Source: an uncultured Saprospiraceae bacterium
GTDB taxonomy: Bacteria; Bacteroidota; Bacteroidia; Chitinophagales; Saprospiraceae
Direction of reading: 5' to 3'
DNA: 45,937 bases
Assembly (NCBI GenBank): GCA_905480605.1
Contig: CAJQRD010000019.1
Location: 1 to 45,937, forward strand
Part shown: positions 3,057 to 29,837 of the stretch, one piece after another
How positions within the stretch are numbered: the stretch's first letter is position 1
How the letters are laid out: every line of letters starts with the position of its first letter
Program-made: the position numbers and the translations under genes
The notes under the pieces: model-generated
The model's database searches: none
What the model was told of the DNA's origin: nothing
What the model saw: only the letters and a program-made list of their open reading frames with translations

Positions 3057-3647
3057 TTATTTGCTTTTAATAGAACATCCAATTGCCTTAGTTGTGGAGG
3101 GATTTGGGTTCTCTCCTTTTTGAAGAGAGGCAATTGCATTTTCAAGATACTTAACTTCTACAGCATCTGCATCTCTTGGACTGTCATCGATTGCACCAAT
3201 ATATTTTACTGTCATGTCTTTGTCTAGTAAGAACACATGGGGCGTTTTTGTAGCACCATAATTTGGATAAACTTTTTGACCGTCATCAAATAGGTAAACA
3301 AAAGGAAAGTTTTTCTCTTCAGCTCTTACAATCATTTCTTCATAACCATCTGCTGGTTGTACTGAAGGATCATTTGGGTTTATAGCTACGACTGGATAAC
3401 CTAGGGGTGCATATTTATTATGCAATTCAATTAAACGATCTTCATACATTACAGCATAAGGACAATGATTACATGTAAATGTTATTATGTAACCTTTCGC
3501 ACCTTCAAAATCAGATAGCGAAATCATTTTACCGTCAATGTTTTTAAGTTTAAAGTCAGCTGCTTTATCTCCAACTTTATAACCATCTGCTAAAAACGTA
3601 AAAGATAATGTGCCAAGTAATAATGTAAAGAATATTAAATTTTTCAT
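3057..3647 (-). CDS. exported thioredoxin-family (AhpC/TSA-like) protein
   Basis: The 196-aa protein begins with a hydrophobic signal sequence (residues 1-19). The domain that follows starts YKVGDKAADFKLKNIDGK, the typical entry to peroxiredoxin/TlpA-like thioredoxin folds. The redox site is FTCNHCPY with Cys59 and Cys62 (CxxC). The downstream NPNDP and the cis-Pro region TKTPHVFLLDK complete the fold. The family commonly acts as a periplasmic thiol-disulfide oxidoreductase; the partner is unknown. It follows a TlpA-like gene at a 10-bp gap on the same strand, so the two are almost certainly co-transcribed and may act in sequence. Confidence 0.85.
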   Translation of the reverse strand: MKNLIFFTLLLGTLSFTFLADGYKVGDKAADFKLKNIDGKMISLSDFEGAKGYIITFTCNHCPYAVMYEDRLIELHNKYAPLGYPVVAINPNDPSVQPADGYEEMIVRAEEKNFPFVYLFDDGQKVYPNYGATKTPHVFLLDKDMTVKYIGAIDDSPRDADAVEVKYLENAIASLQKGENPNPSTTKAIGCSIKSK

Positions 3648-3657
3648 ATTTCTAATT

Positions 3658-4182
3658 TTATTTTTTCGATTTTAATAATGGATCAATAATACCTTTTAAC
3701 TCATCTGGAGAATGAAAGACTTGTTCGTAAAAATTGCGTTGATCTCCGCTTTTAATAATTGTAATTGGAATAGAACCGGACCATGATGGGTCAACTCTAT
3801 CAATCCATTTAGATTCTTTAGGATCTAAAAGTAGTACTACCTCAGATTTTATATTGTGCTTATTTAGAAAAGGAATGAGTCTTTTGTCAATTTGCTTTTC
3901 AAAATCCAAGCTTACTAAAACTACTTTTACCTTTTCGTCTTTATAAATATTGTGAAGGGATTCAAAATGTGGTAGCTCTTTTACACAAGGACCACACCAC
4001 GTTGCCCAAAAGTTTATAACATAAACAAGGTCATCTTCTGTATTTATAATGGCTTCCTCAAAACTGTCAAAAGATCTATAAATTATCAGGCTGTCACTTG
4101 ACCACTCTTGAGCCTGAGATGGTGTAACATTAAATAAAAGAAAAAAAATACTTGAGAAAAACAAAGTGCGCATAAAATTCAT
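3658..4182 (-). CDS. TlpA/ResA-family thiol-disulfide reductase
   Basis: A 174-aa protein with an N-terminal signal peptide (cleavage likely after SQAQ, about residue 25) and a thioredoxin fold. The classic active site FWATWCGPC has Cys63 and Cys66, and is followed by VKELPHFESLHNIY. TlpA/ResA proteins reduce periplasmic disulfides, for instance in apocytochromes. The specific substrate here cannot be read from the sequence. A second ATG lies at codon 4 (4173); the signal peptide works from either. It is the first gene of a two-gene unit with the CNHC redoxin. Confidence 0.85.
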   Translation of the reverse strand: MNFMRTLFFSSIFFLLFNVTPSQAQEWSSDSLIIYRSFDSFEEAIINTEDDLVYVINFWATWCGPCVKELPHFESLHNIYKDEKVKVVLVSLDFEKQIDKRLIPFLNKHNIKSEVVLLLDPKESKWIDRVDPSWSGSIPITIIKSGDQRNFYEQVFHSPDELKGIIDPLLKSKK

Positions 4183-27207: not shown

Positions 27208-27564
27208 TTATTCAGGAGCTCCATCATTAATCCAACTTGTCAATTTATCAATTGTACAATCATCTAATTTTGTCCCGCCTTTTGGCATTTGCGAAAATCC
27301 TGACTCATGATTAATTGCACCTATAATTCTTCCTTCTCCAACAGCTGCAAATGCTTCAGTATAATCTCCCATAGGAAAAGTTGTATTTGTATTTGAAGCG
27401 TGGCAACTAGACGTGGCACAACTTGTATTCAAAATATCGGCAACAACACTATTATACGTTAATCCGTCTGTTTCACATGTCATAGTTACTAGGTCTTCAT
27501 CATCACCACAAGCGACAAAACCAATAAGCACCAGCATGGCAAAAAGTAATTTCATTCTATTCAT
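27208..27564 (-). CDS. small lipoprotein with cytochrome c-like signature (CX4CH)
   Basis: A 118-aa protein with a lipoprotein-type signal (LIGFVAC, Cys19) followed by an acidic GDDED stretch. The rest resembles a mono-haem cytochrome c domain. VADILNTSCATSSCHAS has Cys49, Cys54 and His55, and GFSQMPKGGTKLDDCTIDKLTSWINDGAP has a candidate axial Met93 and the typical final helix. The haem motif is CX4CH, not the usual CXXCH, so covalent haem attachment is uncertain. Cys103 in LDDC could instead form a disulfide. It converges on mscL and is divergent from the tyrA operon. Confidence 0.7.
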   Translation of the reverse strand: MNRMKLLFAMLVLIGFVACGDDEDLVTMTCETDGLTYNSVVADILNTSCATSSCHASNTNTTFPMGDYTEAFAAVGEGRIIGAINHESGFSQMPKGGTKLDDCTIDKLTSWINDGAPE

Positions 27565-27667
27565 ATTTAAAATTTTTGCCTAAGTTAAAAAAATCATTTC
27601 AGACATTTGTCCTAAAACAAGCATAGCAGCAATAACTTCATCTTATAATAGTTTTTTCATGATTAAC

Positions 27668-27698
27668 TTGTGTTTTATTAATATTCCGTTTATGTTTG
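27668..27698 (+). promoter_or_regulatory. promoter of the tyrA-aroF operon and its leader
   Basis: TATGTTTG (27691-27698) matches TAnnTTTG exactly. TTG (27668-27670) lies 20 nt upstream, the expected -33 spacing. Transcription should start around 27702-27705, a few bases before the leader-peptide ATG at 27707. Confidence 0.75.
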
Positions 27699-27706
27699 AA
27701 TTAATA

Positions 27707-27775
27707 ATGAATAAAACTTATACTATATATCATACTTGGAGTTACAGCTATTTCTGGAAACAGAACGGACTCTAA
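27707..27775 (+). CDS. aromatic amino acid leader peptide (attenuator), 22 aa
   Basis: The ORF from ATG at 27707 to TAA at 27773-27775 encodes 22 residues, starting MNKTYTIYHTWSYSYFW. Seven are aromatic: Tyr5, Tyr8, Trp11, Tyr13, Tyr15, Phe16 and Trp17. It lies between a consensus promoter and a terminator that precedes tyrA. Its 3' end (27766-27772) is complementary to the terminator's 5' arm. This is the arrangement of ribosome-mediated attenuation known from trp and phe leaders. The function is inferred from sequence only, but composition, position and pairing agree. Because the ATG is only 2-5 nt from the predicted start site, translation would be nearly leaderless. Confidence 0.8.
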   Translation: MNKTYTIYHTWSYSYFWKQNGL

Positions 27776-27838
27776 TTGTTATATGTAGTTATTTAGATAT
27801 AGATGAGTCCGGAGTTATTAACTCTGGACTTTTTTTTT
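27736..27838 (+). promoter_or_regulatory. transcription attenuator: protector, antiterminator and terminator stems
   Basis: Segment 1 (27736-27743, TTGGAGTT) can pair with segment 2 (27768-27775, GACTCTAA region) over 8 bp with two G-T. Segment 2 (27766-27772, CGGACTC) is perfectly complementary to segment 3 (27805-27811, GAGTCCG). Segment 3 (27806-27817) pairs with segment 4 (27819-27830) over up to 12 positions with one G-T, followed by T27830-27838. A ribosome held at Tyr13, Tyr15 or Phe16 would cover segment 1 and free segment 2 to form the antiterminator. A ribosome reaching the stop codon covers segment 2 and lets the terminator form. Confidence 0.8.
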
Positions 27839-27857
27839 GATTATAAATAAGTTAACT

Positions 27858-28727
27858 ATGAAAATTGGTGTAGTAGGACTAGGTCTGATTGGAGGCTCGA
27901 TAGCAAAGGAATTAAAATTAAGGTCATTTGGTTCTATTGAAGTGTTTGGTGTTGATAACAATCCAGAACATTCCCAAAAAGCAAGTGATTTGGATTTGGT
28001 GAACGGTATTATAGATCTTGATTCTGCTTGCCAGCAATGTGATGTAATTATAGTTGCAGTTCCTGTAAATATTATAGAAAGAATACTTCTCCAAATCCTT
28101 GATAAAATAGATGACAACGTTACAGTTTTTGATGTTGGATCAACAAAAAAAGAAATCTGCAACGCCGTTAAATCACACAAAATGAGACGACGATTTGTTG
28201 CTTCACATCCACTAGCTGGAACAGAGCGTTCAGGCCCAGAAGCTGCACTAATAAACCTTTTTAATGGTAAGAAAAACATCATTTGTGAAGAAAAATTCAG
28301 TGATAAAGATGCAATTGATAACACAATGAAGATATTTGATTTCTTGGGGATGAAAAGTTATTTCTTAAGCGCTGATGAACACGATAAACATATGGCGTAT
28401 GTATCGCATTTATCACATGTTACCTCATTTGCATTAAGCCAAACAGTTTTAGATATAGAAAAGGATGAAAAACAAATATTTAATTTAGCCAGTACTGGTT
28501 TTGCCACAACAGCCAGACTTGCCAAGTGTAACCCTGTGACATGGGCTGCCATATTTGAAAAAAATTCAACTTATCTGTCCGAAGCTTTGGGTGTGTACAT
28601 TCAAAAAATGACAGAATTTAAAAAGCTGGTTGATAGCGTTGATGTAAAAGGAATACACAGCTCTATTGTGGAAGCAAACGAAATTACTCGCGTATTAAAA
28701 GGTATAGAATTGAACAAGACTTCATAA
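27858..28727 (+). CDS. tyrA: prephenate dehydrogenase
   Basis: TyrA oxidatively decarboxylates prephenate to 4-hydroxyphenylpyruvate, the tyrosine branch. From ATG at 27858 the protein is 289 aa. A Rossmann NAD(P) loop opens it (MKIGVVGLGLIGGSIAKEL). The prephenate site lies in FVASHPLAGTERSGPEAA, and the helical dimer domain follows (HMAYVSHLSHVTSFALSQ). A longer frame from 27837 starts inside the terminator T run and is not credible. No chorismate mutase is fused here; that activity is on the next gene. The gene follows the attenuator terminator by 19 nt. Confidence 0.93.
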   Translation: MKIGVVGLGLIGGSIAKELKLRSFGSIEVFGVDNNPEHSQKASDLDLVNGIIDLDSACQQCDVIIVAVPVNIIERILLQILDKIDDNVTVFDVGSTKKEICNAVKSHKMRRRFVASHPLAGTERSGPEAALINLFNGKKNIICEEKFSDKDAIDNTMKIFDFLGMKSYFLSADEHDKHMAYVSHLSHVTSFALSQTVLDIEKDEKQIFNLASTGFATTARLAKCNPVTWAAIFEKNSTYLSEALGVYIQKMTEFKKLVDSVDVKGIHSSIVEANEITRVLKGIELNKTS

Positions 28728-28736
28728 CGAAAAATT

Positions 28737-29837
28737 ATGTCAGAAAATAAGAAAAGAGAATCATGGTTGACTAAAAACAAAAGACCAATTGTAATAGCAG
28801 GACCTTGTAGTGCTGAAACAGAAGAGCAAGTTATTGAAACTGCGAAGGGGTTAAAAAAGACAGGAAAATCTGATATTTTTCGTGCTGGAATTTGGAAGCC
28901 AAGAACAAGTCCTGGATCTTTTGAAGGCGTAGGATCAAAAGGATTACCATGGTTACAAAAAGTAAAAGAAATAACTGGTTTTCCTACAACCGTAGAGGTT
29001 GCAAAAGCTTCACACGTTGAGCTTTGTCTTGAATTTGGAATAGATATTTTATGGCTCGGAGCGAGAACAACCGTAAACCCATTTGCTGTACAGGAAATTG
29101 CCGATGCATTGCGAGGTGTAGACATCCCTGTCTTAGTTAAAAACCCTATCAATCCAGACTTAGCTTTATGGAATGGCAGTGTTCAAAGAATAAAAAAAGC
29201 TGGCATAAAAGAAGTTGGCGCTATTCACCGTGGGTTTTCAAACCTTGGAGAAAAGTATTACAGAAATAGACCTCAATGGCAAATCGCTATTGAGTTTATG
29301 AGGCAAAATCCTGATATGCCAATGATTTGTGATCCAAGTCATATATGTGGAAGGAGAGATATCCTTCAAGATGTTGGTCAAAAAGCAATGGATCTTGATT
29401 TTGATGGATTGATGATAGAAAGTCATATAGATCCAGATAATGCATGGAGTGATGCCAAACAACAAATAACTCCTAAAGTTTTTGGTACCATGATTACAGA
29501 AATGAAACTACGTCATGATTATGAGGATAACCCAAGATTACAGAGCAAATTGGACCAAATGCGTGAAGTAATTGATCATATAGACGAAGAAATTATAAAT
29601 TCCTTATCCAATAGAATGGCTATTGCAAGAGATATTGGGACGTATAAAAAAGAAAACAATATAACCATCTACCAGGATAAACGGTGGAACGAAATTATTG
29701 ATAAAACAAAAGAGCAAGCAAAAAAATCTGGATTAAGTGTCGAATTTATATTAAAATATATAAATGCTGTACATGATGAAAGTATAAACCAGCAAGACTT
29801 TATTATGAAAAAAAAAGAAAAAGGAGAAAGCAAATAA
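28737..29837 (+). CDS. aroF: bifunctional 3-deoxy-7-phosphoheptulonate synthase / chorismate mutase
   Basis: A 366-aa fusion. Residues ~15-250 are a type I-beta DAHP synthase, condensing PEP and erythrose 4-phosphate: VIAGPCSAE, FRAGIWKPRTSPGSFEGVG, VLVKNPINPD, IHRGF and DPSHICGRRD. Residues ~265-355 form an AroQ chorismate mutase helix bundle (LDQMREVIDHIDEEIINSLSNRM). The mutase is C-terminal, the order described for Porphyromonas gingivalis and the reverse of Bacillus. In such enzymes prephenate binding to the mutase can inhibit the synthase. It is 9 bp after tyrA. Together they cover the first step of the shikimate pathway and the steps from chorismate towards tyrosine. Confidence 0.93.
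   Translation: MSENKKRESWLTKNKRPIVIAGPCSAETEEQVIETAKGLKKTGKSDIFRAGIWKPRTSPGSFEGVGSKGLPWLQKVKEITGFPTTVEVAKASHVELCLEFGIDILWLGARTTVNPFAVQEIADALRGVDIPVLVKNPINPDLALWNGSVQRIKKAGIKEVGAIHRGFSNLGEKYYRNRPQWQIAIEFMRQNPDMPMICDPSHICGRRDILQDVGQKAMDLDFDGLMIESHIDPDNAWSDAKQQITPKVFGTMITEMKLRHDYEDNPRLQSKLDQMREVIDHIDEEIINSLSNRMAIARDIGTYKKENNITIYQDKRWNEIIDKTKEQAKKSGLSVEFILKYINAVHDESINQQDFIMKKKEKGESK

Follow-up and report, generated by a model that had tools for sequence, protein, structure and literature searches.

What controls the aromatic biosynthesis genes tyrA and aroF in an uncultured Saprospiraceae bacterium is the question raised by a 45,937-nucleotide stretch of its DNA (contig CAJQRD010000019.1, analysed at its full length and termed the window here), in which a short open reading frame (ORF) rich in aromatic codons and a strong terminator lie upstream of tyrA. 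The original prediction, made from the letters alone, was that this region is a ribosome-mediated attenuator, and our analysis makes it highly probable that the tyrA-aroF leader is a transcription attenuator of the trp/pheL type, a mechanism that is itself classical and known. The predicted promoter, leader ORF, T9 terminator and pairing coordinates all hold on direct reading of the sequence, and Pfam places both downstream genes in aromatic synthesis, as had been proposed. The features are as follows, in window coordinates.

27668–27698, + strand: promoter, with TTG at 27668–27670, a 20-nt spacer and TATGTTTG at 27691–27698 (read from the sequence)
27707–27775, + strand: leader ORF, MNKTYTIYHTWSYSYFWKQNGL plus TAA; 22 codons, ATG at 27707, stop codon TAA at 27773–27775
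27736–27743, + strand: segment 1 (TTGGAGTT), lying in codons Trp11 and Ser12; forms the core of a longer predicted protector stem, 1:2 (minimum free energy fold)
27766–27772, + strand: segment 2 (CGGACTC), 5′ strand of the antiterminator (read from the sequence)
27805–27816, + strand: segment 3, 5′ arm of the terminator; GAGTCCG at 27805–27811 doubles as the 3′ strand of the antiterminator
27820–27831, + strand: segment 4, 3′ arm of the terminator (terminator scan)
27830–27838, + strand: T9 tract (read from the sequence)
27858–28727, + strand: tyrA, prephenate dehydrogenase, 289 aa (Pfam PF02153, 1.3e-31; PF20463, 9.3e-21)
28737–29837, + strand: aroF, DAHP synthase-chorismate mutase type II fusion, 366 aa (Pfam PF00793, 6.8e-37; PF01817, 3.8e-21)

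The TATGTTTG box fits the −7 consensus TAnnTTTG of Bacteroidota, as given in the accessible portions of PMC7366714 and PMC9723704, and the leader ATG lies 8 nt past it, which suggests a 5′ UTR some 5 nt long. Within Bacteroidota, short 5′ UTRs are uncommon according to the same portions, B. thetaiotaomicron having 3.7% under 10 nt (PMC7366714) and F. psychrophilum 5.5% leaderless transcripts (PMC9723704), and a leaderless leader-peptide mRNA is described for S. meliloti trpL in the available part of PMC7298713. A sigma70-type promoter scan returned one site where 2.3 were expected by chance. Seven of the 22 leader codons are aromatic, comprising the predicted four Tyr (5, 8, 13 and 15), two Trp (11 and 17) and one Phe (16). 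Between this ORF and tyrA, the terminator (27805–27831) consists of a 12-bp stem followed by the T9 tract; on its own it folds with −16.5 kcal/mol, it is the one site found by the terminator scan (0.0, sd 0.2, in shuffles), and the tyrA ATG at 27858 follows 19 nt past the T run.

Segment 2 is perfectly complementary over 7 bp to GAGTCCG in the terminator 5′ arm (2:3), so that antiterminator and terminator (3:4) are mutually exclusive. Segment 1 can pair with 27768–27775 (1:2; eight pairs, two of them G-U) and could thus sequester segment 2, as had been suggested. Judged as a single sequence against shuffles, the 2:3 duplex of the window is borderline (p 0.055) and its 1:2 duplex reaches p 0.02; the pairings can be taken as more than chance because they are conserved in relatives. 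The leader as a whole (27700–27838) folds with −37.4 kcal/mol, compared with −21.05 (sd 3.03) for 200 shuffles (z −5.4), and the predicted fold of the free RNA combines 1:2 with 3:4.

To model a ribosome on the leader, an A-site codon was chosen, the RNA was hidden as far as 12 nt past its first base, a value assumed for the model, and only the RNA preceding segment 4 was folded. The 2:3 stem was predicted to form when the A site held Tyr5, Tyr8, Trp11, Tyr13, Tyr15 or Phe16 (−15.8 to −20.4 kcal/mol); a clipped 2:3 remained for Trp17 (−9.3 kcal/mol), and there was none for the stop codon. The model thus agrees with the earlier proposal that stalling at Tyr13, Tyr15 or Phe16 frees segment 2 and would add Trp11 and, in part, Trp17; a ribosome halted early, at Tyr5 or Tyr8, would likewise allow 2:3 to form ahead of the synthesis of segment 4. 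Once segment 4 was present, free folding of the full leader favoured the terminator in every stalled state. It follows that the outcome has to be decided kinetically, as in trp attenuation.

From this anatomy we infer a course of events in which transcription would begin just upstream of the leader ORF, with a ribosome trailing RNA polymerase. When charged tRNA-Tyr (perhaps also tRNA-Trp or tRNA-Phe) is ample, the ribosome would reach the stop codon and cover segment 2, and 3:4 would terminate transcription before tyrA. When Tyr is short, the ribosome would stall within codons 11–16, covering segment 1, with its leading edge just short of segment 2; segment 2 would then pair with segment 3, the terminator would not form, and tyrA-aroF would be transcribed. 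Without translation, 1:2 would form and transcription would again terminate.

Within the genus, a leader lies directly before tyrA in five genomes, that of the window included; the other four leaders are MNKTFTTYYTWSYFYLKNGL (G006), MNNTKTYFTWSYFYYERNGL (G007), MKTNTTVYTYWSSYWACSGF (G004, with a GTG start) and MRNNYCNTYYGYWTTEVVL (G002). The −7 box is retained in G006, G007 and G002 and takes the variant form TATGCTTA in G004, the distance from box to start being 7–9 nt across all five. TTGGAG, a part of segment 1 that lies within a Trp codon, is shared by the window, G006, G007 and G004, and G002 differs there. The genus also includes G005 and G011, in which a leader precedes aspC-tyrA-aroF. 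Pair counts from a MAFFT alignment of the five leaders were dropped, as the terminator 3′ arm was misaligned, and a permutation test was used instead (see below).

Beyond the genus, 95 loci were scanned as a first set, from which five with too little upstream sequence and two duplicates were removed. An aromatic-rich ORF and a terminator precede the first gene (pheA, aspC, tyrA or aroF) in 67 of the resulting 88 loci with visible upstream sequence, 66 of these leaders coming from the main scans and one (L044) being found later. Judging by record names, their hosts include Saprospiraceae, Cyclobacteriaceae, Chitinophaga, Flavobacteriaceae, Prolixibacteraceae, Alistipes and other Bacteroidales. 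As a measure of chance, the first scan gave about 15 scattered matches, counted by eye, elsewhere in the same loci. The arrangement is thus kept among relatives, as an attenuator would lead one to expect, though the detectors found no leader in 21 of the 88 loci: four had a weak ORF or no terminator (L031, L052, L066 and L067) and 17 showed nothing, these 17 including loci from gut or rumen Bacteroidales, aspC-tyrA of Pedobacter and pheA of G007. Two loci titled Lentisphaerae (L058) and Chlorobi (L055) were retained in this set, and some loci share a genome (L113 and L139 in G006; L114 and L140 in G007).

A second set came from a PF00800 search of 119 genomes of the class, in which 33 matched and 30 loci were taken; 29 could be validly scanned, L218 ending at a contig end. 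A leader was present in 19 of the 29 (18 of them new, one duplicating the first set), and the detector found none in the other ten. The same stricter detector returned no leader in 29 loci labelled as the same phylum but not the same class, whose pheA is 34–50% identical to the nearest three in the first set. The detectors differed between scans, the pairing scan using a looser terminator rule than the first family scan and the second-set scan a stricter ORF rule.

Pairing and spacing were analysed in 66 leaders, leaving out L031, L052 and L067 (no terminator), L066 (a weak TTG ORF 273 nt away, with a terminator following), L119 and L120 (on the same contigs as L048 and L053), and L044 and L084, which were found later. 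In 65 of the 66 leaders the 2:3 duplex is stronger than the median of its 200 shuffles (p < 0.05 in 24), and the 1:2 duplex exceeds the median shuffle in 50 (p < 0.05 in 17); in the second set, 2:3 does so in all 18 new leaders (p < 0.05 in 12). When arms were swapped between species, both stems paired better within than between species: the mean for 2:3 was −12.82 kcal/mol for own arms and −8.43 (sd 0.31) for permuted ones, and that for 1:2 −12.09 and −9.19 kcal/mol, with none of 5000 permutations as good in either case. Helix sequences vary between groups while complementarity is kept. Owing to kinship among loci, all these statistics are descriptive rather than strict probabilities. The original prediction passed both of the sequence-based tests proposed with it, retention of an aromatic-rich ORF by relatives and covariation of the stems.

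The position of the antiterminator follows the aromatic codons closely. The spacing, counted from the first nucleotide of the cluster's final aromatic codon to the point at which segment 2 begins to pair, has a median of 14 nt (SD 3.0) and falls between 10 and 18 nt in 59 of 66 leaders, compared with 21% (maximum 32%) in 100 shuffles; for the window it amounts to 11 nt if Trp17 is the reference and to 14 nt if Phe16 is. The distance of segment 2 from the stop codon is far looser (median −7, SD 10.7, range −31 to +8). Since this pattern was first noticed in the very 66 leaders on which it was tested, new data carry particular weight: all 18 new leaders of the second set fall within 10–18 nt (shuffles 19%, maximum 44%; SD of the stop-codon distance 12.3), some of them being kin of each other (L201 and L204, L209 and L212) or of first-set members, and seven of seven further leaders follow the rule, three being near-identical Pedobacter sequences. 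The spacing is about that at which RNA would emerge free of a ribosome whose A site holds the last aromatic codon, pointing to the geometry of a stalled ribosome. The attenuator of the window would belong to a family spread across many Bacteroidota groups, in which the distance from last aromatic codon to segment 2 is fixed. A near-leaderless start was rejected as a family-wide rule: an exact TAnnTTTG stands 4–11 nt before the start in 20 of 67 leaders, 16–25 nt before it in 17, and in neither position in 30.

These comparisons bear on other readings of the region. The terminator could be constitutive and merely insulate tyrA, the ORF being incidental, a role for which its strength and T9 tract would suit it; yet the closest gene-like ORF 5′ of the promoter (27208–27564) is on the minus strand, the leader ORF begins a short way downstream of the promoter, and relatives conserve the aromatic codons as well as 2:3 pairing and spacing, making this reading very improbable. 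Slightly less credible still is a leader that binds a metabolite or tRNA (a riboswitch or T-box) or a protein, with translation of the ORF irrelevant. The strong structure of the leader RNA speaks for such an element, but the position of the pairing tracks the aromatic codons, and no Rfam family matched at gathering score in the window, nor in the loci of 11 relatives, where relaxed thresholds likewise gave nothing usable; a permissive scan of 27650–27900 gave five matches far below gathering (best L20_leader, E 0.035, 21.6 of 58.7 bits) and no T-box. The leader product might instead be a small protein acting in trans, for which peTrpL of Sinorhizobium meliloti offers a precedent in the accessible part of PMC7298713; here, though, relatives share the aromatic cluster only, while lengths and C-termini vary widely, and we give this idea as little credence as the preceding one.

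Across the family, the codons of a leader tend to match the genes behind it: leaders of operons with pheA are richer in Phe, and in two lineages, though not in a third, those of operons lacking pheA are shifted towards Tyr. The mean F/(F+Y) is 0.57 over 46 operons that contain pheA and 0.36 over 19 that lack it (p 5e-5 by Mann-Whitney test, uncorrected for kinship). Flectobacillus and Pseudarcicella have Tyr-only leaders before aspC-tyrA (L071 and L079), and their pheA genes (L149 and L156), with no leader found upstream, are longer frames of 366 and 358 aa, the start of that in L149 resembling what we take to be a chorismate mutase domain. G006 carries pheA elsewhere in its genome, behind two tandem Phe-rich leaders, MKLNIRNTSFCFFYFFSRNGA and MSTYFSFCFFFTKG, and the pheA leader of Puteibacter reads MNYFFFSFFKD. 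Exceptions are nine tyrA-aroF loci (Prolixibacteraceae-like in our own grouping), G005 (F4 Y4) and L046, which have Phe-containing leaders and no pheA in the operon, as well as the mixed leader of Pedobacter pheA, which runs against the rule.

The genome of the window itself appears to have undergone a split of the operon. Its only PF00800 match consists of two overlapping pieces with in-frame stops, a decayed pheA on the minus strand (G000:C64:11003–11516, L111) that is the only pheA trace found there, with several in-frame stops, in an assembly of 125 contigs that may hold errors. The ORF before it is 59% identical to the ORF before the intact pheA of G007 and 46% identical to that preceding leader-pheA-aspC-tyrA-aroF in G032, and from these matches the decayed pheA appears to occupy the original position of the operon, tyrA-aroF having moved apart from it. 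Phe synthesis by PheA has probably been lost in this genome, and the leader would now serve the Tyr branch; in this lineage the leader is dominated by Tyr codons and not by a Phe/Tyr mixture, which accords with tyrA-aroF having parted from pheA. The absence of a PF00800 match from 11 of 14 genomes of the genus, several of them 90–98% complete, suggests repeated loss of Phe synthesis.

A broader specificity deserves consideration alongside this Tyr-centred one, namely that shortage of Tyr, Trp or Phe would each stall the ribosome, with the excess of Tyr codons secondary. DAHP synthase-chorismate mutase serves all three amino acids, two Trp codons and one Phe codon remain, with Trp17 and Phe16 nearest segment 2, and F, Y and W are interleaved in many relatives' leaders. 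Against this, Trp11 lies within segment 1, so RNA pairing rather than sensing may hold it, pheA is decayed in the genome, and in each of four sister genomes a distinct Trp-Trp-Trp leader lies 5.7–5.9 kb upstream of trpA. We regard a general aromatic sensor as possible, with rather less than even probability. The broader reading that we moderately favour is that of a widespread, uncatalogued aromatic attenuator family of Bacteroidota (probably class Bacteroidia), in which selection would hold the distance from last aromatic codon to antiterminator at roughly the length of a ribosome's leading edge and leave the stop codon to drift over about 40 nt, many members would be near-leaderless, and, after pheA-aspC-tyrA-aroF operons split, leaders would be retuned codon by codon (Tyr-rich before tyrA; Phe-rich, sometimes tandem, before pheA).

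The enterobacterial pheL/pheA and trpL systems have a leader ORF with codons for the product amino acid, the alternative stems 1:2, 2:3 and 3:4, and a terminator before the first gene. The tyrA-aroF leader shares the product-codon ORF, the three alternative stems and the position of the terminator; it differs in the genes controlled, in its Bacteroidota-type promoter and in an ORF placed almost at the inferred transcript start. RF01859 (Phe_leader) did not match in the window, and its best score in the loci of 11 relatives was 32.7 bits (L116; gathering 55). The Bacteroid-trp element RF01692 (Weinberg 2010, PMC2864571), described before trp in F. psychrophilum (PMC6414381; both papers as far as accessible), likewise comes from Bacteroidota and precedes an aromatic amino-acid operon, but has no match in the window or elsewhere in its genome (G000); the sole match in the genus, in G005, scored 47.1 of 49 bits, below the cut-off.

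It had also been remarked that no experimentally described aromatic attenuator of this kind was known from Bacteroidota. This stands for tyrA-aroF, for which no leader is described in the literature searched, a search that did not cover the 2010 survey by Lopatovskaya et al.; for pheA there is an earlier report. The accessible part of PMC9723704 reports RNA-seq clues to leader-peptide attenuation before amino-acid operons of F. psychrophilum and, upstream of pheA, a structured 5′ element that occurs in other Flavobacteriaceae too and has no Rfam hit. This element probably belongs to the same family as the tyrA-aroF leader; the accessible part gives no detail of mechanism and mentions no tyrA-aroF leader. 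Leader-like sORFs are mentioned as unexplored in the available text of PMC7366714. The family-wide geometry and the retuning of codons had no prior description among our search results. The papers found say little about amino-acid attenuation in Bacteroidota, despite the unusual promoters and translation starts of the phylum. The family points to an RNA model absent from Rfam and supplies many natural variants for comparing stall-to-antiterminator distance, regulatory codons and operon content, with operon splits serving as natural experiments on sensor specificity and gene content.

Four loci contain two tandem aromatic leader-terminator units before one operon or gene, as if attenuators had been stacked: L124 (G006:C131, minus strand), L038 (~3655–3926), L061 (~2654–2893) and L101 (~3641–3924). 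No Trp-Trp-Trp leader was seen in the trp region of the window's genome, which begins just 3.7 kb before trpA on its contig. Those of the four sister genomes (L142, L143, L144 and L145) follow the spacing rule in one case of four and have weak duplexes, and in L142 a stretch of the leader looks complementary to the loop and 3′ side of the terminator, not to its 5′ arm; their switch logic may differ from that of the aromatic family.
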